A stretch of DNA of 64,000 nucleotides, taken from the NCBI GenBank assembly GCA_009783695.1, contig WRCY01000001.1, positions 1 through 64,000 of the forward strand, in the 5' to 3' direction. The translations under genes and the position numbers were made by a program. Shown one piece after another: positions 14,679-56,411 of this stretch (position 1 is its first letter; the number at the start of each line of letters is the position of its first letter). Under the pieces are notes generated by a model. It worked only from the letters and a program-made list of their open reading frames with translations. It was not told the DNA's origin and did not search any database. This DNA is from Oscillospiraceae bacterium (lineage in GTDB: Bacteria > Bacillota > Clostridia > Oscillospirales > Ruminococcaceae).

Positions 14679-15427
14679 CCGTTTATCACCGCATTATTTA
14701 CTATATTGCCGAGCACCTCAAGCGAGCGTTCATGCGCTCGCTGTTGTCTTTCGTTTTCAAGGTTCAGCGCGAGCAGCGCGATGTAAAAATCATCGGGGCA
14801 GAAATCGCCTATGCCGGAGAGCCGCGACAATTCGCTGCCTGCGAGTTTATAAAACACATCTTCTTTCACGTTCGCGTTGCCCGGGAAAAGCTCGCTTAAA
14901 TTAACAAATATTGCGTCCAATTCACGGTTTGAATCGCCTACTATGCGGTCGAAAGCCTCGCGGTTTCCGATGATTAACCGCGTCACGCCCGTCCTTATCT
15001 GCGTGAAAAGCTTGGTCTGCGTCGCCATGAAAGCGTTATTGTCGAACACGTTGTAAAGGTCGATGACAAGCCCCTCCGCATGAACGTACTTGTTTTCGTC
15101 AAAGTTAGGCGTAAACGCCGCGACAGCCTCGCTTATATCTTTATCGAAGCTGTACATAACAGCGCTCGTGATTTCATTCGAAGCAATCATCAAAAACTCA
15201 ATGTCGGGCTTTTTTCTCGAAAGCAAATCAACGGCAAAAAAGCCTGTTAACAAACCGAAAAACAGTACCATTAAAACATGAATCTTATAATGGTACCAAA
15301 AGTTTTCGGCTTTCTTTTTACCGTGAAGTTCGACTGCTTCAGTTTCTTCTTTTTTTATTACCTCGCTGTCTTCAATAAGCCCCTGCTTCAATTTTAACAG
15401 CTCGCGTTTATCATGATTCGTTGACAT
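14675..15427 (-). CDS. Hypothetical single-TM protein
   Basis: ORF with TM HVLMVLFFGLLTGFFAV; AGGAGAAACTT-ATG at 15427. Confidence 0.6.
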   Translation of the reverse strand: MSTNHDKRELLKLKQGLIEDSEVIKKEETEAVELHGKKKAENFWYHYKIHVLMVLFFGLLTGFFAVDLLSRKKPDIEFLMIASNEITSAVMYSFDKDISEAVAAFTPNFDENKYVHAEGLVIDLYNVFDNNAFMATQTKLFTQIRTGVTRLIIGNREAFDRIVGDSNRELDAIFVNLSELFPGNANVKEDVFYKLAGSELSRLSGIGDFCPDDFYIALLALNLENERQQRAHERSLEVLGNIVNNAVING

Positions 15428-15439
15428 AAGTTTCTCCTG

Positions 15440-15489
15440 AATTGTCAATTATCAATTGTTAATTATGGATTGTCAATTGTCAATTATCC
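15440..15489 (-). repeat. Family-2 heptamer array after lysS stop
   Basis: ATTGTCA ATTATCA ATTGTTA ATTATGG ATTGTCA ATTGTCA ATTATCC. Confidence 0.85.
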
Positions 15490-15490
15490 G

Positions 15491-16912
15491 TTACGGCTTC
15501 ATCGTCGGGAACAAAAGTACGTCGCGGATTGACGCGCTGTCCGTGAGAAGCATCACAAGCCTGTCAAGCCCGAGCCCGAGCCCTCCCGTCGGAGGCAAGC
15601 CGTACTCCAGCGCAGTCAGAAAATCTTCGTCCAGCTCAGCTTTTAAGCCTTGTTTCCTCTTCTCCTCAACCTGCTTCGCAAAGCGTTCGCGCTGGTCAAT
15701 AGGGTCGTTGAGCTCGCTGAACGCGTTACCGAACTCCCACGCATTAATAAAATATTCAAAACGCTCCGTAAACATTGGGTCGTCTTTTTTCCGCTTGGCA
15801 AGCGGCGAATTCTCCACGGGATAATCATAAATAATAGTCGGCTGAATGAGCTTCGGCTCGACGTGCTCTTCAAACAAATCAATCAGCTCGTTGCCGCTTA
15901 CGCCGGTTTTGCCCGTGTATTTCTCGACTGCCCCGCGCATTGTCATACGCGTCCACGGCTTGCCGAGTTCGATTGCCGTACCCTTAAACATAATTGTATC
16001 GCTGCCGCAAATCGTAAGGCATAAATGCCTGTAAAGCGCCTCGACCAAATCCATAACCGCGAAGTAATCCACATACGCCCAGTACAGCTCAATCGACGTG
16101 AATTCGGGGTTGTGCGTGGAGTCCATGCCCTCGTTTCGGAAGATTCTGCCGACTTCATAAATCTTGTCAAAGCCGCCCACAATCAGCTTTTTAAGGTACA
16201 GCTCTGTTTCTATTCTAAGATACATTTCAATATCAAGCGTGTTGTGATGCGTGATGAAAGGCCGCGCCGCCGCGCCGAGCGACACGGTGTGAAGTACGGG
16301 CGTGTCAACTTCAAGGAACCCTAAATTATCAAGGTAACTGCGGATTTCGCGCAGAATCAGCGAGCGTTTGACAAACGTATCCTTTACCTCCGGATTCGCG
16401 ATTAAATCGAGGTAACGCTTCCTGTAACGTTCCTCCTTATCCCGCAGTCCGTGCCACTTTTCTGGCAGCGGCAGCAGCGATTTTGTAAGCAGCGTGATTT
16501 CTTTGGCATGAACGGAAATTTCACCGCGCCTTGTCTTGAAAACAAAACCGCGGACACCGACTATATCGCCTAAATCCCACTTCTTAAATTGCGCGAAGTT
16601 TTCCTCGCCGATGTCGTCGGTTTTCACATAAACCTGCATGCGTCCGCTTGCGTCGCGCACGTCGATAAAATTCGCCTTGCCCATATCGCGCCAGCTCATT
16701 ATCCGCCCGGCAATACACACGTCCTTGTTCTCATACTCATCGAATTTATCTGCGATTTCAACATTTTTATGCGTTACCGCATACTTTGTTATCTCATAAG
16801 GATTCTGCCCCGCGCTTTTTAGTTCCGCAAGCTTTTCAAGCCTTATCCGGTTTTGCTCGCCAAGCTCTGCAAGCATCTCCTCATTGGTTAAAACTATTTC
16901 GTTTTCCTGCAT
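15491..16912 (-). CDS. lysS: Lysyl-tRNA synthetase, class II
   Basis: GRIMSWRDMGKANFIDVRDASG, FRNEGMDSTHNPEFTSIELY, GLGLGLDRLVMLLTDSASIRDVLLFPTMK. Confidence 0.96.
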   Translation of the reverse strand: MQENEIVLTNEEMLAELGEQNRIRLEKLAELKSAGQNPYEITKYAVTHKNVEIADKFDEYENKDVCIAGRIMSWRDMGKANFIDVRDASGRMQVYVKTDDIGEENFAQFKKWDLGDIVGVRGFVFKTRRGEISVHAKEITLLTKSLLPLPEKWHGLRDKEERYRKRYLDLIANPEVKDTFVKRSLILREIRSYLDNLGFLEVDTPVLHTVSLGAAARPFITHHNTLDIEMYLRIETELYLKKLIVGGFDKIYEVGRIFRNEGMDSTHNPEFTSIELYWAYVDYFAVMDLVEALYRHLCLTICGSDTIMFKGTAIELGKPWTRMTMRGAVEKYTGKTGVSGNELIDLFEEHVEPKLIQPTIIYDYPVENSPLAKRKKDDPMFTERFEYFINAWEFGNAFSELNDPIDQRERFAKQVEEKRKQGLKAELDEDFLTALEYGLPPTGGLGLGLDRLVMLLTDSASIRDVLLFPTMKP

Positions 16913-24470: not shown

Positions 24471-24551
24471 TTTATTTCCATTAAGTCCTTTCTTCACAAA
24501 CGAGCAATTAAAACAACGTTTTCCCCGATTCAATTGTGTTTATTTTCAAAC
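24471..24551 (-). repeat. Family-1 repeat, orphan copy directly after the hpf stop
   Basis: GTTTGAAAATAAACACAATTGAATCGGGGAAAACGTTGTTTTAATTGCTCGTTTGTGAAGAAAGGACTTAATGGAAATAAA. Confidence 0.88.
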
Positions 24552-25073
24552 TTAATCCTTTGTCGGCTCCATCACCCCGTAGTGCCCGTCCTTGCGCTTG
24601 TAAACCACGTTAATCTCGCCGGTGTCGCCGTTCTTGAACATGAAGAAGCTATGCCCGACCATGTTCATCTGTAAAATCGCCTCGTCCAAATTCATTGGAT
24701 GCAGAATAATAGGCTTTTTCTTAATAACCTCATATGCCGCCTGCTCCTCGATTTCATCTTCAAAACCGTCGTTAAATGCTGCTATGTGCAGGCGTTTTTC
24801 GATTTTTGTTTTATTCTTGCGGATTTGCCGGACAATCCTGTCGACACAGGCGTCAAGCGCGTCGTTCTTATTCTGCGCGGACTGCTCTGCTCTGAATGTA
24901 AGATTATCGTGCTGTACGGTAAGCTCAAGTGTTATCATGCCGCGCTGCGTGGACATCGTGATTCTCGCGTCAAAGGCTTCCCCGAAAAACCGTTCGAGTT
25001 TTTTAAGCTTGCTCTGGGCGTACTCCGCTAAGCCGTCGGCCTGCACTTTTTTCGCGGTTATTTTTACGTTCAT
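24552..25073 (-). CDS. hpf: Ribosome hibernation promoting factor, long form
   Basis: MNVKITAKKVQ... HPF N-domain, C-terminal PMNLDEAILQMNMVGHSFFMFKN. Confidence 0.93.
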   Translation of the reverse strand: MNVKITAKKVQADGLAEYAQSKLKKLERFFGEAFDARITMSTQRGMITLELTVQHDNLTFRAEQSAQNKNDALDACVDRIVRQIRKNKTKIEKRLHIAAFNDGFEDEIEEQAAYEVIKKKPIILHPMNLDEAILQMNMVGHSFFMFKNGDTGEINVVYKRKDGHYGVMEPTKD

Positions 25074-26477: not shown

Positions 26478-26543
26478 GTAGGTGTTTCATGTTGTTTATT
26501 TCCTTTCGGTTGTTTATTTGTTAATTTCGGGATTTTCAGTTCT
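26465..26543. repeat. 79-bp direct repeat, copy B; contains a 5' remnant of argF
   Basis: Identical by eye to 26047..26125, offset 418. Confidence 0.92.
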
Positions 26544-26738
26544 CCCTGCGAGATAATCAATTGATACTTCAAGATAATCCGCAATTTTTTCAACGGTATC
26601 AATTTTAGGCATTTGCCCCTTAGACAAGTTACCCACATAATCTTTAACGCCGCATGAAATAAGAAGTTGATTTCTGCTGATTCCTCTTAATTCCGCTAAA
26701 GCATCTATTTTTTTAATCATTATTTGTGCATTAGCCAT
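26514..26738 (-). CDS. XRE-family regulator (module 2)
   Basis: HTH-like; tail SIDYLAGRTENPEINK. Confidence 0.82.
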   Translation of the reverse strand: MANAQIMIKKIDALAELRGISRNQLLISCGVKDYVGNLSKGQMPKIDTVEKIADYLEVSIDYLAGRTENPEINK

Positions 26739-29175: not shown

Positions 29176-29397
29176 TTATTTATTTACCTCGGGATTATCG
29201 GTTCTGCCCGCAAGATAATCAATGGATACACCTAAGTAATCCGCAATTTTCGCGACTGTATCAATTTTAGGGACTTGCCCTTTTTGTAAATTATCAACAT
29301 AAAATTTCACACCGCATGATATTAGCAGTTTATTACGGCTTGTGCCGCGTTCTTTTGCTAATTCATCTATTATTTTTACCATTTGTTCAAGATTCAT
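29176..29397 (-). CDS. XRE-family regulator (module 3), 10 nt upstream of argB
   Basis: MNLEQMVKIIDELAKERGTSRNKLLISCGVKFYVDNLQKG..AGRTDNPEVNK. Confidence 0.8.
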   Translation of the reverse strand: MNLEQMVKIIDELAKERGTSRNKLLISCGVKFYVDNLQKGQVPKIDTVAKIADYLGVSIDYLAGRTDNPEVNK

Positions 29398-29457
29398 AAT
29401 AAACCACCTGTTCTTTTGTGCAAGCATACAAACATCTGTTATCTAATAGATAAGCTA

Positions 29458-29527: not shown

Positions 29528-29749
29528 CTACGCATTAATTTCGGGATTATCAGTCCGCCCTGCAAGATAATCAATAGATACGCCTAAGTAATCCGCAATT
29601 TTCGCGATTGTAGCAATGTTGGGCAACTTATCTTTTTTTAAGTTATCTACATAACTTTTTACACCGCAATCATTAAGTAGCTTATGACGGCTCACACCGC
29701 CACGTTTTGCTAAGTCATCTATTATTTTTATCATTTGTGCACTATTCAT
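29528..29749 (-). CDS. XRE-family regulator (module 4)
   Basis: MNSAQMIKIIDDLAKRGGVSRHKLLNDCGVKSYVDNLKK..AGRTDNPEINA. Confidence 0.8.
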   Translation of the reverse strand: MNSAQMIKIIDDLAKRGGVSRHKLLNDCGVKSYVDNLKKDKLPNIATIAKIADYLGVSIDYLAGRTDNPEINA

Positions 29750-29808
29750 ATTTTTTCTACCTCTTAATTGTATATTTATACAAATTGCGTACAAATACGG
29801 ATTCTATA

Positions 29809-42538: not shown

Positions 42539-43711
42539 AAACTCGCTGCACACCTGCACGCAACCCCCGAGTTTTTTTAAATCTTCAAAAAACTGCGGAT
42601 ACGATTTTTCCACTGCCTGCGCGCCTTTTATAACAGTTTCCCCCTCACAGAAGCTTCCGCAAACCGCCGCCGCCATTACGATTCTGTGGTCGTTTTTACC
42701 CTCGATTATCCCGCCTTTTAATTCTCCGCCGGTGATAATTAAACTGTCGCTTTTCTCCTCAACTTTCGCGCCGAAAGCTTGCAGCATTTCGCTCACGCTT
42801 GAAAGCCTGTCGCTCTCTTTCAGCCGTAACCTCGCCGCGTTATAAAGTACGGTTTCACCTTTCGCGAACGCGCCTGTAACCGCTAAAATCGGCACTAAAT
42901 CAGATATTTGCGAAACGTCAATTTCAATGCCGGAAAGTTCGCCGCACACCTTAAAACGGTTTAATATACTAACTATTTCCTTGTCGCCCTGCGTCGAATT
43001 CATATCCAGTCCGGATATTTTAATTTGACCGCCGATTGCATCCGCCGCAAGAAAAAAAGCCGCGTTTGACCAGTCTTTTTCAATAATAATTTCACCGGGC
43101 GAAACATACTTTTGCCCGCCTTTGACTTCGTAATTATTACCGTTTCGTGTTATTTCAACACCGAATTTTTTAAGCATGTCCACCGTCATGTCAACGTAAC
43201 CCTCAGACTCAAGCGGTGATGTGAGTCTGATTACGCTGTCGCCGTCAAGCAGCGGCAACGCAAGCAGCAAGCCGCTTATAAACTGCGAGCTTACATTCCC
43301 CGGTAAAACAAATTCACCGCTTTTAAGTTCTCCCGAAACTGTAAAAGGCAGCTTATCCGAAGAAAAAACTGCGCCGTTTGCCTTAAGCGCGTCGAGTAAA
43401 GCAGAAATCGGACGTTCCGGCAATCTGCCCTCTCCGGTGAACTGCGCGCTGTTGCACAAATGAGCCGCAAGCGGCAGCAGCAGCCTGAATGTCGCGCCGC
43501 AGTCACGGCAATCAATTAAAGGCGCGTTTTTGATTCTCATCGCGCTGAGACAACTTACTGTCGCCTCTATATCGCTTGACATATTATCAATTTTTATTTC
43601 CGGTTTCTGCTCACATAAAAATGCGCAAATGAGTGCGCGGTGCGCCGCTGATTTTGACGTTATCGCCGCTGCTTCCCCCGATAATTTCCGCGGTGTAATT
43701 TTTATATTCAT
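42512..43711 (-). CDS. aroA: 3-phosphoshikimate 1-carboxyvinyltransferase
   Basis: LKESDRLSSVSEMLQAFGA, NDHRIVMAAAV; start MNIKITPRKLSG. Confidence 0.94.
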   Translation of the reverse strand: MNIKITPRKLSGEAAAITSKSAAHRALICAFLCEQKPEIKIDNMSSDIEATVSCLSAMRIKNAPLIDCRDCGATFRLLLPLAAHLCNSAQFTGEGRLPERPISALLDALKANGAVFSSDKLPFTVSGELKSGEFVLPGNVSSQFISGLLLALPLLDGDSVIRLTSPLESEGYVDMTVDMLKKFGVEITRNGNNYEVKGGQKYVSPGEIIIEKDWSNAAFFLAADAIGGQIKISGLDMNSTQGDKEIVSILNRFKVCGELSGIEIDVSQISDLVPILAVTGAFAKGETVLYNAARLRLKESDRLSSVSEMLQAFGAKVEEKSDSLIITGGELKGGIIEGKNDHRIVMAAAVCGSFCEGETVIKGAQAVEKSYPQFFEDLKKLGGCVQVCSEFDEIGENTV

Positions 43712-43953
43712 GTTTTCATTAAGTCCTTTCTTCACCAACGAGAAATAAAAAACAACATTTTCCCCGATTTTGTATCAGTTATTTTTAAACATATTTTCAT
43801 TAAGTCCTTGTCTTCACCAACGAGAAATAAAAACAACATTTTCCCCGATTTTGTATCAGTTATTTTTAAACATATTTTCATTAAATCCTTGTCTTCACCA
43901 ACGAGAAATAAAAACAACATTTCCCCTATTTTATATCAGTTATTTTTAAACAT
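43712..43953 (-). repeat. Three tandem family-1 repeats, 81-bp period, between aroB and aroA
   Basis: CATTAAGTCC/CATTAAATCC starts at 43717, 43798, 43879. Confidence 0.94.
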
Positions 43954-43954
43954 G

Positions 43955-45022
43955 TTAATCCTTTTCCAGTCCCAGCTTAAATATTTCAAGAAGCTCAATC
44001 GCCTCAATCTCTTTTATAACGCACTTTCCGATGCGTTCGGGAATGATAATGTTAATTTTTACGCCGCTTCTTTTTTTATCCGAAAGTGCGGCTTCGTATA
44101 GTTTTTCAGCACAGAAATTCATATTAAATACATTCGGAAAATCAAAGTACGCCGCAGCGATTTCCTGCGAAAAATCGCAGTCACAGAATCCTTTTTTATA
44201 AGCCGCCCTGCTCATTATAATCATTCCCGCCGCTACGGCTTGTCCGTGCGATACCGCATGATTAGTGCATTTTTCTATCGCGTGTCCTGCTGTATGCCCG
44301 AAGTTTAACAACTGCCGTTTTCCTTTTTCAAACTCATCAGCCGCTACAATCCCGCCTTTAATTTTAATATTACGCGAGATAAATTCAACTATGTTTTTCA
44401 TATATTCGCTGCGTGTTTTTCCGCTTAAACAGCGGAAAAGCTCCTCATCGGCAATAAACCCGTGCTTAACCACTTCCGAAACTCCGTCCGCAAACGTAAC
44501 ATCATCAAGCGTACGGAATGTTTCCGGGTCGCATATCACAGCTTCAGGCTGATAAAAAAGCCCCGCCAAATTTTTTCCTGCACCGAGATTCACCGCAGTC
44601 TTCCCGCCCACGGAAGAATCGACCGCCGCAAGAAACGTTGTCGGAACTTGAATATACCTTATTCCGCGCAGGTAAATCCCGGCCGCGAAGCCCGCCATAT
44701 CTCCGGCAATACCGCCGCCGAGCGCGATTATAAAATCCGAACGTGTCACCTTATTGTCAGCCAAAAAATTTAAAATTTTAAAAAGTTCATCGGTTGTTTT
44801 ATGATTTTCACCGTTTTTAAATGCATAAGAAATCACGTTGAATCCTGCGTTTTCAAGCGATTTGCGTACTGCCGGCTCATATAGCGCAAAAACATTATCA
44901 TCGGTGATTACAGCGGCTGTTCCGCCTCTTATATATGTCGGAAAATATGCCGCTATTTCATTTATTATGCCCGTTTCAATTATAACGTCATAAGGTTTTC
45001 TCACATTAATTCTGACTTTCAT
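43955..45022 (-). CDS. aroB: 3-dehydroquinate synthase
   Basis: ALGGGIAGDMAGFAAGIYLRGI, LNFGHTAGHAIE. Confidence 0.95.
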   Translation of the reverse strand: MKVRINVRKPYDVIIETGIINEIAAYFPTYIRGGTAAVITDDNVFALYEPAVRKSLENAGFNVISYAFKNGENHKTTDELFKILNFLADNKVTRSDFIIALGGGIAGDMAGFAAGIYLRGIRYIQVPTTFLAAVDSSVGGKTAVNLGAGKNLAGLFYQPEAVICDPETFRTLDDVTFADGVSEVVKHGFIADEELFRCLSGKTRSEYMKNIVEFISRNIKIKGGIVAADEFEKGKRQLLNFGHTAGHAIEKCTNHAVSHGQAVAAGMIIMSRAAYKKGFCDCDFSQEIAAAYFDFPNVFNMNFCAEKLYEAALSDKKRSGVKINIIIPERIGKCVIKEIEAIELLEIFKLGLEKD

Positions 45023-47646: not shown

Positions 47647-47682
47647 AGTTTTATTTTATGCTGTTCCTGTTAAGTATAAACC

Positions 47683-47719
47683 TAATTGTCAATTATCCAT
47701 TGTCAACTGTCAATTGTCA
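47683..47719 (-). repeat. Short family-2 heptamer array at the hprK stop
   Basis: ATTGTCAATTATCCATTGTCAACTGTCAATTGTCA. Confidence 0.75.
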
Positions 47720-51077: not shown

Positions 51078-52328
51078 ATGAACAATAAATATACCGAACT
51101 CAGAGCCCGTCATAAACGGCTTGTCTATCACGATTTTAAAATTTACGAGGGTAAAATTGTCTTTCATTTTTCTATTGACGAGTTTCATTTCAAGCCCGAG
51201 TGGACCGTCATGCCGCCGGTGACAATACCGCCGCTTATCAGCGGAAATATAGATTTGCTGGTGTTTAACTTAGGCATGGCTGAACTCATCAGCTACTGGA
51301 AGTGCGCCTGCCCGCCGATTGTCGAGGTGCGGTGCGGCGCTTTAAGCGATTGGCAGATTGCATGGTGGAAGAAGCTTTACATGAACGGGCTCGGCGAGTT
51401 TTTCTACCGCAACAATATTGAAATTGATGACGATTTCATGCAGATTCATGCAACAGGCACTGAACTGCCGGCGCCGGAAAGCCGTAAATTATCGGGTAAT
51501 CTTATACCTATCGGCGGCGGAAAGGACAGTGTTGTTACGCTTGAGCTGCTTAAAAGCCGAAAAGAAGCCAATACTTGTTATATCGCAGGCAGTATCGGGA
51601 GTGCGCTTGACTGCGCAAAAACCGCAGGTTATGCGGATTCGCAGGTAATTAATGTAAGCCGTACAATCGACCCTGCGCTGCTTGAACTGAATAAACGCGG
51701 CTATCTCAACGGGCATACGCCTTTTTCATCAATTATTGCGTTTTCTTCACTTATCTTCACTTATCTTGCCGGCAAAAAATATATCGTGCTTTCTAATGAA
51801 AGCAGCGCAAATGAGGGTAATGTTACTAATAACAGCGGCGTCAATCACCAATACAGCAAAAGCATAGAATTTGAGCGGGATTTCCGCGAGTATGTTTCGC
51901 AAACAGGCATGAATTTACCCGAGTATTTCAGCCTCCTGCGTCCCTGGAGTGAGTGGCAGATTACAAAAAGGTTTTCTGTTTTGCCGCAATATCTGAGTGT
52001 TTTTAAAAGTTGCAACGTCGGCTCAAAAACTAATACGTGGTGTGCGAAATGCGCAAAGTGCCTTTACGTTTACATCATGCTTTCCGCGTTTTTAGACGAG
52101 GAGAAGCTGCTGCCCGTTTTCGGCAGAAACCTGATGCTCGACCCTGAACTCGCACCCATACTCGAAGCTCTTAAAAACCCTGATTATGACAAGCCTTTTG
52201 AGTGCGTGGGTACCCGTGAAGAAGTCAATCTCGCGCTTAATAAAAACCGCGGAAATCCGACTCCGCTTGATAATTATTTTGATAAAATTAATTTCGTTCC
52301 AAAAGAGTTTTTGAGGTTATTAGTTTGA
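51078..52328 (+). CDS. MurL-like UDP-MurNAc-L-Ala-L-Glu epimerase candidate (PP-loop type)
   Basis: LIPIGGGKDSVVTLELLK; position next to a MurD-like ligase. Confidence 0.65.
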   Translation: MNNKYTELRARHKRLVYHDFKIYEGKIVFHFSIDEFHFKPEWTVMPPVTIPPLISGNIDLLVFNLGMAELISYWKCACPPIVEVRCGALSDWQIAWWKKLYMNGLGEFFYRNNIEIDDDFMQIHATGTELPAPESRKLSGNLIPIGGGKDSVVTLELLKSRKEANTCYIAGSIGSALDCAKTAGYADSQVINVSRTIDPALLELNKRGYLNGHTPFSSIIAFSSLIFTYLAGKKYIVLSNESSANEGNVTNNSGVNHQYSKSIEFERDFREYVSQTGMNLPEYFSLLRPWSEWQITKRFSVLPQYLSVFKSCNVGSKTNTWCAKCAKCLYVYIMLSAFLDEEKLLPVFGRNLMLDPELAPILEALKNPDYDKPFECVGTREEVNLALNKNRGNPTPLDNYFDKINFVPKEFLRLLV

Positions 52329-52404
52329 AAATAAACACAACTGAATCGGGGAAAACGTTGTTTTCATTCCGCTTTTGTGAAGAAAGGACTTAATGAGAAT
52401 AAAA
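52325..52404 (+). repeat. Family-1 repeat upstream of murD-like gene
   Basis: TTGAAAATAAACACAACTGAATCGGGGAAAACGTTGTTTTCATTCCGCTTTTGTGAAGAAAGGACTTAATGAGAATAAAA-ATG. Confidence 0.9.
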
Positions 52405-53700
52405 ATGATAAAATTATATGAATTCTTTCAGTATAAAACAGTTTTAATCCTCGGTTTTGGCTTGGAGGGCCGTTCCACACTTGATATATTACAGAAAATT
52501 CCATGCAGTATCGTAGTCGCCGACAAGAATCCCGGCGCCGTGAAAAATTTGCCGTATAAGCTTTACACCGGTGAGAATTACTTAGATTCGCTCTGCGACA
52601 GCAAAATTGATATAATCATGAAATCGCCCGGCATCAGTTTTAAAGGTCTTGAAATCCCGGCTTATGTTAGGCAGAAAATCACCTCGCAAACCGACTTGCT
52701 GCTGCGTTTCAGTGACAACAAAATCATCGGAATCACAGGCACGAAAGGCAAATCCACGGTTTCTTCGCTGATTCATCATATCCTCATATATTGCGGAAAG
52801 GAATCTGCACTCATCGGTAACATCGGCGTACCGCCTCTTGAATTTATGCGTAAAAATAATGATTCCGCCGTCACGGCGGTGTGCGAGATGTCCTGCCATC
52901 AGCTCGAATTCGTACAGGCCTCGCCTGATATCGCGGTTTATCTGAATCTTTACGAGGAGCATCTTGACCATTATAACAGCTTCGCTGATTACCGTACGGC
53001 GAAGGAAAATATTTTCCTATACCAAAAAAGCGGGGATTTACTCATCTATCTTGACGAGCTTGAATCGCAGGAATTACTTACTTCAAAAGGTGAAAAGCTC
53101 GCGCTCTCGTATAATCAGCCAAATACTTACAAATCCCGACTCCCCGGTAAGCATAACCAATACAACATAGCGGTCGCAGCCGCGGTTTGCAAGCAGCTCG
53201 AGTGCGGTGAAAAAGATGTAATTTCTGCCGTGGAAAGTTTTAACGGTCTGCCGCATCGTCTTGAATTCATCGGAATAATAAACGGCGCGGAGTACGTCAA
53301 CGACAGCATCAGCACGATTCCGCGGGCGGCGGTTTTGGCGCTGGAAACTTATCCCGACACCGATACGATTATCATCGGCGGCATGGACAGGGGAATAAAT
53401 TACACAGAACTTGTTGATTTTCTTGACAAAAATAAATTCTGTGGTATAATTAATGTAATTGTCTTACCGGACAGCGGATACAAGGTCGCAGACTTACTTA
53501 AAACCGGCAATATCAACATATACCGCGCGGGTAATATGAACGACGCTGTGCAATATGCCGTCAGCGTTACCAAGTGCCGCTGCATTCTTTCGCCCGCCGC
53601 CGCAAGTTATAATGTTTATAAAAACTTTGAAGAACGCGGCGAACATTTTAAGGAGATTATTAGCGAATATATACAAAAAGAGCAAATGACAGAGGTTTGA
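52393..53700 (+). CDS. Mur ligase, MurD/MurD2-like
   Basis: GITGTKGKSTVSSLIHHIL, LPHRLEFIGIINGAEYVNDS; start could be ATG 52393 or ATG 52405. Confidence 0.85.
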   Translation: MRIKMIKLYEFFQYKTVLILGFGLEGRSTLDILQKIPCSIVVADKNPGAVKNLPYKLYTGENYLDSLCDSKIDIIMKSPGISFKGLEIPAYVRQKITSQTDLLLRFSDNKIIGITGTKGKSTVSSLIHHILIYCGKESALIGNIGVPPLEFMRKNNDSAVTAVCEMSCHQLEFVQASPDIAVYLNLYEEHLDHYNSFADYRTAKENIFLYQKSGDLLIYLDELESQELLTSKGEKLALSYNQPNTYKSRLPGKHNQYNIAVAAAVCKQLECGEKDVISAVESFNGLPHRLEFIGIINGAEYVNDSISTIPRAAVLALETYPDTDTIIIGGMDRGINYTELVDFLDKNKFCGIINVIVLPDSGYKVADLLKTGNINIYRAGNMNDAVQYAVSVTKCRCILSPAAASYNVYKNFEERGEHFKEIISEYIQKEQMTEV

Positions 53701-53859
53701 GAGTTTAAGGATAAAACTTTTAAATCAAGAAAAACGATATTTTCATGTTTATTTTCATTAAGTCCTTTTTTCACAAATGAATCATGAAAACAACGTTTTG
53801 CCCGATTCAGTTGTTTTACTTTCAAACTTTATAAGCAAAAGAAGGGAATTAATGAAAAT
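53701..53859 (+). repeat. Nested family-1 repeats: plus-orientation copy interrupted by a minus-orientation copy (about 53749..53830)
   Basis: Plus shell TTAAATCAAGAAAAACGATATTTTCATG ... AAGCAAAAGAAGGGAATTAATGAAAAT-ATG around minus copy TTTTCATTAAGTCCTTTTTTCAC..CCCGATTCAGTTGTTTTACTTTCAAAC. Confidence 0.82.
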
Positions 53860-55152
53860 ATGCTATTTAACAACATAACAATAATCGACGAGAATTTTAA
53901 TGTCCGCCCGAATATGTATGTCGGAGTGAAGGATAAAAAAATCGCCTTTATCGGCGACAGCAAGCCCTACGACGACTTCGGCGACGTATATAACGGTAAA
54001 AATCGTCTGCTCATGAGCGCGTTTTATAATTGCCACGCGCACACACCCATGACGCTTCTGCGCGGATACGGCGAGAACCTGAGCCTGCAGAACTGGCTTG
54101 AAACACGGATATTCCCGTTCGAGGGGCAGCTTGACGACGACGCCGTCTACCGGGGAACCTTACTCGGGATTGCCGAGTCAATCCGATTCGGCATTGTTTC
54201 GACTACCGATATGTACAACTTCTGCTCAAATATTGCGCAGGCTTTCACGGAAACCGGCGTCAAAGCCAACATCGGCAGGGCGATTCTCAGCTTCACGGAC
54301 GAAGAACTGCGCGAAACCGAGCGGTTCCGTGAGTGTGAAGAATTATATAAAAACTTCCATAATACCGCAGACGGGCGCATAAAAATAGATATGTCACTGC
54401 ACTCCGAATACACCTCAAACCCCAAGACCGTCCGGCAGCTCGCCGAATATACAAAAGAAATCGGCGCTCGCATGCACGTTCACGTCAGCGAAACAAGGTT
54501 CGAGCACGAGGAGTGTAAGAAGCGGCACGGCAAAACTCCCTCGTCGTATCTTGCCGAGCATGGCTTATTCGACAGCCCGGCAACTGCGGCGCACTGCGTT
54601 CATATTGAAGACGAGGACATCGCAATCTTTAAGGAAAAAGGTGTGACTGTGGCGAGCTGTCCTGTGAGCAACTTGAAACTCGCGAGCGGTACCTGCAACG
54701 TTCCGAAGCTTGCCGCCGCCGGCGTCAATGTTGCAATCGGCACGGACGGCTGCGCCAGCAATAACAGTCTTAATTTCATCGAGGAAATGAAATTCTTCTC
54801 ACTTTTACATAAAGGAATCTTCGCCGAGCCCGCGGCTTCATCGCCGCGTGACACGCTGTATGCCGCGACCAGAGCAGGCGCTTTGTCGCAGGGGCGCACG
54901 GACTGCGGACTGCTCAAGGAGGGCTTCGCCGCCGACTTAATAGTTTTCGACCTGTCAAAGCCGAATATGAACCCCGCACACGACTTAGTCAGCAACGTGG
55001 TTTACTCCGCGTGCGGCGGCGATATAATTCTCACAATGGCAGACGGCGCAGTGCTTTACAAAGACGGCGAGTATAAGACAATCGACATAGAAAAAGTAGT
55101 TTCAGCAGCGGCAGATGCCACCGCTGCTATACTTAAAAAACTAAATCAATAA
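53860..55152 (+). CDS. Amidohydrolase, MtaD/SAH deaminase-like
   Basis: NCHAHTPMTLLRGYGENLSLQNWLETRIFP, HVHVSET, GTDGCASNNSLNF. Confidence 0.85.
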   Translation: MLFNNITIIDENFNVRPNMYVGVKDKKIAFIGDSKPYDDFGDVYNGKNRLLMSAFYNCHAHTPMTLLRGYGENLSLQNWLETRIFPFEGQLDDDAVYRGTLLGIAESIRFGIVSTTDMYNFCSNIAQAFTETGVKANIGRAILSFTDEELRETERFRECEELYKNFHNTADGRIKIDMSLHSEYTSNPKTVRQLAEYTKEIGARMHVHVSETRFEHEECKKRHGKTPSSYLAEHGLFDSPATAAHCVHIEDEDIAIFKEKGVTVASCPVSNLKLASGTCNVPKLAAAGVNVAIGTDGCASNNSLNFIEEMKFFSLLHKGIFAEPAASSPRDTLYAATRAGALSQGRTDCGLLKEGFAADLIVFDLSKPNMNPAHDLVSNVVYSACGGDIILTMADGAVLYKDGEYKTIDIEKVVSAAADATAAILKKLNQ

Positions 55153-55825: not shown

Positions 55826-55852
55826 AAAAAACCGCCATAAGGCGGTTTTTTA
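55826..55852. terminator. AAAAACCGCC-ATAA-GGCGGTTTTT bidirectional terminator
   Basis: Perfect inverted repeat with A/T tracts. Confidence 0.85.
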
Positions 55853-56101
55853 TTCAAGCTCCATCAAAAGCTTCAGCTTCTTTGATTCGGGATAAGGCTC
55901 TTTGACATCGGTTCTGTACAGCAGATAGTCTACACTCGTACCGTAATAATCGGCGAGCTTATGTAATGCTTCAACAGAAATTTGCCTACGCCCTATTTCA
56001 TATCCCGAATAAGTAGTTTGCTTTATATTAAGTATTTCTGCTATTTTCTTTTGCGACAAATCTGAATCTTCTCTTAAATCTTTAATTCTCATATATTTCA
56101 T
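55850..56101 (-). CDS. XRE-family regulator (module 5)
   Basis: LSQKKIAEILNIKQTTYSGYEIGRRQIS; tail TSVDYLLYRTDVKEPYPESKKLKLLM. Confidence 0.85.
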   Translation of the reverse strand: MKYMRIKDLREDSDLSQKKIAEILNIKQTTYSGYEIGRRQISVEALHKLADYYGTSVDYLLYRTDVKEPYPESKKLKLLMELE

Positions 56102-56143
56102 AGGTTTGACCTCCTATGTTATTATAGCATAACGCGTTTTGCT

Positions 56144-56166
56144 CTGCCGTTAAGGCAGTTTTTTAT
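56144..56166 (-). terminator. CTGCCGTTAAGGCAG hairpin with T tract
   Basis: Inverted repeat CTGCC/GGCAG + TTTTTT. Confidence 0.6.
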
Positions 56167-56411
56167 TCAAGCCCCATCAAAAGCTTCAGCTTCTTCGATT
56201 CCGGATAAGGCTCTTTCACATCGGTTCTGTACAGCAGATAGTCTACACTCGTACCATAATAATCTGCGAGTTTAATTAGAACCTCAACCGGTATGATATT
56301 ATCACCAAGTTCATAATGCGAAAATGAACGTTGGTTTTTACCAACAATTTCTGCTATTTGAGTCTGATTCATATCAGAATCTTCTCTAAGCTCTTTTAAT
56401 CTTGTATACAT
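56163..56411 (-). CDS. XRE-family regulator (module 6)
   Basis: MNQTQIAEIVGKNQRSFSHYELGDNIIP; tail almost identical to module 5. Confidence 0.85.
   Translation of the reverse strand: MYTRLKELREDSDMNQTQIAEIVGKNQRSFSHYELGDNIIPVEVLIKLADYYGTSVDYLLYRTDVKEPYPESKKLKLLMGLE

Follow-up and report, generated by a model that had tools for sequence, protein, structure and literature searches.

Why does one short repeat lie inside another, in the opposite orientation, directly ahead of a gene? The locus sits in the window, a 64,000-nucleotide stretch of an Oscillospiraceae genome, before an amidohydrolase gene (53860..55152, plus strand; PF01979, E 6e-61; ATG at 53860). The native Shine-Dalgarno of this gene, AGAGGTTTGA (53691..53700, plus strand), shares bases with the stop codon that ends the Mur-ligase-like gene upstream (52393-53700; PF08245). 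Between that signal and the ATG, the initial annotation had read a minus-oriented copy splitting a plus-oriented one, and the profile matches agree. The left half of an older, decayed host element occupies 53701..53746 (plus strand), placed by alignment and by a profile match of the joined halves. Its right half, 53828..53859 (plus strand), includes a Shine-Dalgarno, AAGAAGGGA (53839-53847), beside the gene start. A complete, younger element runs in reverse of the host at about 53747..53827 (minus strand; profile 58-59 bits, E about 1e-19). Joined, the host halves make 78 nt and score 11.6 bits, far above the best of 1000 shuffles (4.5 bits), which marks the host as a real, though decayed, copy. 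In a control on the upstream 78-mers of one relative, 6/383 reached the host-copy score of 11.6 bits, and these six, at 24-55 bits, are presumably true copies. A further full element (52322..52401, plus strand; 78-79 bits) precedes the Mur-ligase-like gene.

The nested copy could in principle be an inverted duplication or a recombination scar and owe nothing to transposition. This inverted nesting was seen in one case only, at the amidohydrolase locus, and tandem arrays of the family are evidence of local recombination or duplication among copies. Against this, the inserted copy finds its nearest matches among dispersed copies, the closest of which lies on another contig of the genome and is 94.7% identical; its ends are the usual ends of the family; and the host halves join to an element of normal length (78 nt). 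We consider a scar very improbable. The arrangement is confirmed; its reading as one copy that jumped into an older, decayed copy, as first proposed, is supported, and so are the termini suggested near GTTTGAAA and GACTTAATGAAAA.

TTTA is indeed present on both sides of the nested copy, but the TAAA at its 3' side belongs to the usual 3' end of the element (AATGAAAATAA...). Across 62 single copies we found no consistent duplication, so the TTTA pair should not be taken as a target duplication and is better explained by that usual end; a general TTTA duplication is not supported. The 3' end of the nested copy adjoins a minus-strand ATG triplet, seen as CAT in the TTTTCAT of the host copy, where no gene begins. 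An ATG-like triplet may thus be part of the insertion target, as judged from this single case and set beside the few other off-target copies that have no ATG after them. One such rare off-target element (24473..24553, minus strand) has no start codon after it and lies 5' of a terminator-like hairpin.

We compared the amidohydrolase start with its counterparts in relatives. Three of them (L067 in G012, L032 in G077 and L036 in G069) share the end of the upstream gene and lack the element; there, a Shine-Dalgarno, GGAGGTTTAA or GGAGGCTCAA, stands directly 5' of the same ATG. All three genomes bear the family at other places, and an empty start in element-bearing relatives supports mobility. The same holds at other genes. 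Among all comparable orthologous starts, 17 carry the element here and lack it in G012, 8 have it in both genomes and 0 in G012 alone; in the comparison with G077, 33 carry it here and lack it there, 3 are shared and 3 have it in G077 alone. A Shine-Dalgarno lies no more than 20 nt away at 15/17 of the empty sites in G012 and at 25/33 of those in G077. In several cases the native bases are retained on both flanks, as in TTTTGGGGATA|element|ATGAGA here and TTTGGGGGAATA|ATGAGA in G012. Thus, the element is mobile, as the initial annotation had inferred from the nesting.

The repeat unit is 77-82 nt long, with conserved blocks GTTTGAAAATAA, CGGGGAAAACG and GAAGAAAGGACTTAATGAAAAT. In 822 kb of the 2.23 Mb genome, the profile matched 333 copies (E <= 0.01) and 0 on reversed sequence; an 18-mer allowed <=2 mismatches gave 359 matches in the genome and 0 for the reversed pattern. 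The density of about 0.41 copies per kb extrapolates to about 900 copies per genome, the 822 kb being the largest contigs and not a random sample. To our knowledge, about 0.4 copies per kb is exceptional among known bacterial short repeats. Of the loci, 155 hold one copy each and 67 hold arrays with between two and five, among them three elements before a gene start at 43709..43955 (minus strand). Mean identity is 87% among array members and 68% between arrays, a pattern that suggests duplication in place. The spread has been fairly recent, given that identity between dispersed copies rises to 97-99%. In L136:1-400 we also saw an array of three from a divergent subfamily, with CCGGGCAG...CTACCCG around TGAATCGGGGAAAACG and a shortened 3' part.

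Other repeats occur in the same DNA. On the minus strand at 55838-56408, a segment of about 258 nt is duplicated in tandem (78% identical) and contains two small ORFs, 83 and 82 aa long. A three-copy repeat of about 217 nt (26520-26736, 29182-29398 and 29534-29750; 71-78% identical) is unrelated to the leader element. Short intergenic TTGTCAATTGTCAATT-type runs lie at 15427-15503 and 47657-47719, with others like them in further parts of this genome and in G012. G012 and G077 have another intergenic hairpin family, GTAGGG(T)GCGACGCCCTCGGCGCACCG, near gene starts, for example 5' of genes in L160 and L223.

Where the leader element lies is highly regular. In this genome, 196/214 testable loci are directly 5' of a start codon in sense orientation, and the same applies to 36/37 loci in G012, 22/25 in G006 and 11/13 in G077; in a looser control, 473/3000 random positions had an ATG and open frame within a 39-nt window. 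A Shine-Dalgarno-like motif stands just 5' of the element at 47/112 loci, compared with 6/112 in a control window further upstream, and the element therefore separates the native Shine-Dalgarno from the ATG. That retained motif does not fade with age: decay of the native Shine-Dalgarno in older copies was rejected, with 38% in young and 39% in old copies. The element also has a Shine-Dalgarno of its own, AAGAAAGGA, at its 3' end, most commonly 12 nt before the ATG; a second arrangement is 4 nt longer and brings an ATG of the element in frame with the gene. Among single copies of this genome, the distance from element end to ATG has two peaks, 4 or 8 nt after ATGA, and the in-frame ATG of the longer form would add an N-terminal M-K-I-x. 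Most element-bearing genes lie downstream in gene clusters: 138/167 come after a gene on the same strand, and the median gap between that gene and the element is 13.5 nt. The ribosomal protein genes for L2, L22, L14, L6, L30 and L15 are among those with an element in front. The initial annotation missed two features: that the element targets the stretch from Shine-Dalgarno to start codon, and that it has a Shine-Dalgarno of its own.

The family is restricted to a clade. A sequence model found it in 10/71 genomes of the genus: dozens of copies in several of G006, G012, G020, G069, G077, G085 and this genome, and few in G003, G023 and G080, all counts being lower bounds since scoring covered only the top candidates in each genome. 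Outside the genus, an order-level sample gave three single, partial, near-threshold matches, and phage and plasmid collections had no match to the element. The consensus differs per species; the plan and the place before start codons are common to all. The named relatives are Oscillospiraceae assemblies, which from their sample names we take to be termite-gut metagenomes, and this genome presumably comes from a termite-gut bacterium. Our search of the open literature found no paper describing this element family.

We then turned to what might move it. The initial annotation had suggested a RAYT-like gene, and the family does share with REP/BIME elements a short, non-autonomous, intergenic unit at high copy number. 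A hairpin mobilized by a Y1 transposase, of the REP/RAYT or IS200/IS605 type, would fit these features and the near-perfect hairpins of some copies. However, the Y1 transposase profile (PF01797) had 0 matches in this genome, which is 94% complete, and none in G012, and no hairpin or palindrome is conserved across the family. The family targets start codons, and sense orientation there is not known to be typical of REPs. Such an origin is less probable still than a recombination scar at the nested locus, and the suggested RAYT-like gene is not supported. A group II intron or retroelement derivative was likewise rejected on 0 matches to the reverse transcriptase profile (PF00078) in the same 94% complete genome, and TnpB on no match there. 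A classical MITE was rejected because the ends, GTTTGAAAATAA and TTAATGAAAAT, are not mutual inverted repeats and no fixed target duplication was found over the 62 single copies.

IS110 transposases occur in 6/10 element-bearing genomes and about 10/61 others of the genus (Fisher p 0.007, post hoc), located for example at L262 (G077), L298 (G085) and L299 (G012). We did not accept IS110 as the mover, because it is absent from the genome richest in copies, where its profile had no match at 94% completeness, and its flanks are unlike the element. A degenerate copy near IS110 in G077 is in fact 5' of another gene. A caveat applies to all of these absences, as the assembly is 94% complete and metagenome assemblies often lose transposons.

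Two described repeat families come closer in position. MIRU of mycobacteria are repeats that seem to be mobile and have start codons as their insertion sites; they are short, intercistronic, sense-oriented and tandem, have little effect on the gene, and contain an internal ORF coupled to it with a -4 nt overlap (2025 review, PMC12548453). The present element resembles them in described features, with no sequence relation known: in its length of 77-82 nt, its intercistronic place, its arrays of up to 5 and its insertion at start codons (196/214 loci, with empty sites). It differs in having a Shine-Dalgarno instead of a coupled ORF, in its far greater copy number (about 900, extrapolated) and in its phylum. 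In the only frame tested, a TTG-started one, the stops of 14 testable copies scatter between -68 and +14 relative to the ATG, giving no consistent ORF end, and copies differ in length by 1 nt. Single-base indels between copies, which leave no reading frame intact, led us to reject a coding repeat. Despite the similar position and tolerance, then, we do not file the family as MIRU, since a coupled ORF was not found. For MIRU, too, we know of no mover. TAACTGA direct repeats of marine Beggiatoaceae are forward-oriented, lie immediately 5' of start codons and overlap the ribosome-binding region (PMC4679880). The present element is also forward-oriented right before start codons, but it is an 80-nt unit with filled and empty sites, whereas the TAACTGA repeats are heptamers without Shine-Dalgarno character, in 169 sets.

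Sequence conservation within the family raises a different reading, in which the copies are regulatory leaders kept by selection: a shared protein or small RNA would bind CGGGGAAAACG and govern the translation of a large regulon, and this regulation would be the reason that copies persist. In diverged copies, CGGGGAAAACG (90%) and AAGAAAGGAC (89%) match the consensus far better than the rest (54-71%), and some insertions are common with G012 (8/25 loci). The AAGAAAGGAC block is the element's Shine-Dalgarno; the conservation of CGGGGAAAACG suggests a role beyond carrying that signal, and CGGGGAAAACG may be recognized by the mover or serve in regulation. Because the profile search favours copies that keep both blocks, these conservation figures are partly biased and suggestive only. 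Further, the copies stand before a varied set of genes, most insertion sites occupied in one species are vacant in the next, and the copies have no consensus RNA structure, no covariation and no Rfam match. A structured RNA or riboswitch was rejected on that Rfam result and an empty consensus fold, and a small hairpin before the Shine-Dalgarno gave no covariation. We regard selected leaders as unlikely.

Taken together, we propose with considerable confidence that these ~80-nt units are non-autonomous mobile elements. They insert in sense orientation, 3' of a gene's Shine-Dalgarno and 5' of its start codon, and bring a Shine-Dalgarno of their own at the 3' end. On this model, an element would enter that gap, often inside operons, and its Shine-Dalgarno AAGAAAGGA would take over translation of the gene. 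Since each copy brings a Shine-Dalgarno, the gene would stay translated, which would have let the element reach about one fifth of all genes, those for ribosomal proteins among them. Local amplification would then have turned copies into tandem arrays. At the amidohydrolase locus, one copy would have entered between AGAGGTTTGA and the ATG, and a second would later have entered the first in reverse.

A bolder version, in which a mobile 5' leader has rewired translation across at least a fifth of the genome through the Shine-Dalgarno/start-codon gap and placed it under common control through CGGGGAAAACG, is a tentative idea that we think doubtful, if somewhat less so than selected leaders. If it is true, the genes with a copy, ribosomal proteins included, would have one translational signal in common. 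The gap between Shine-Dalgarno and start codon is among the most sensitive places of a gene, and a mobile element can occupy these few bases by supplying a replacement signal. With the usual enzymes not found, what moves it becomes a sharp question. The clade itself is a natural experiment, in which the same orthologous starts can be compared with and without the element.
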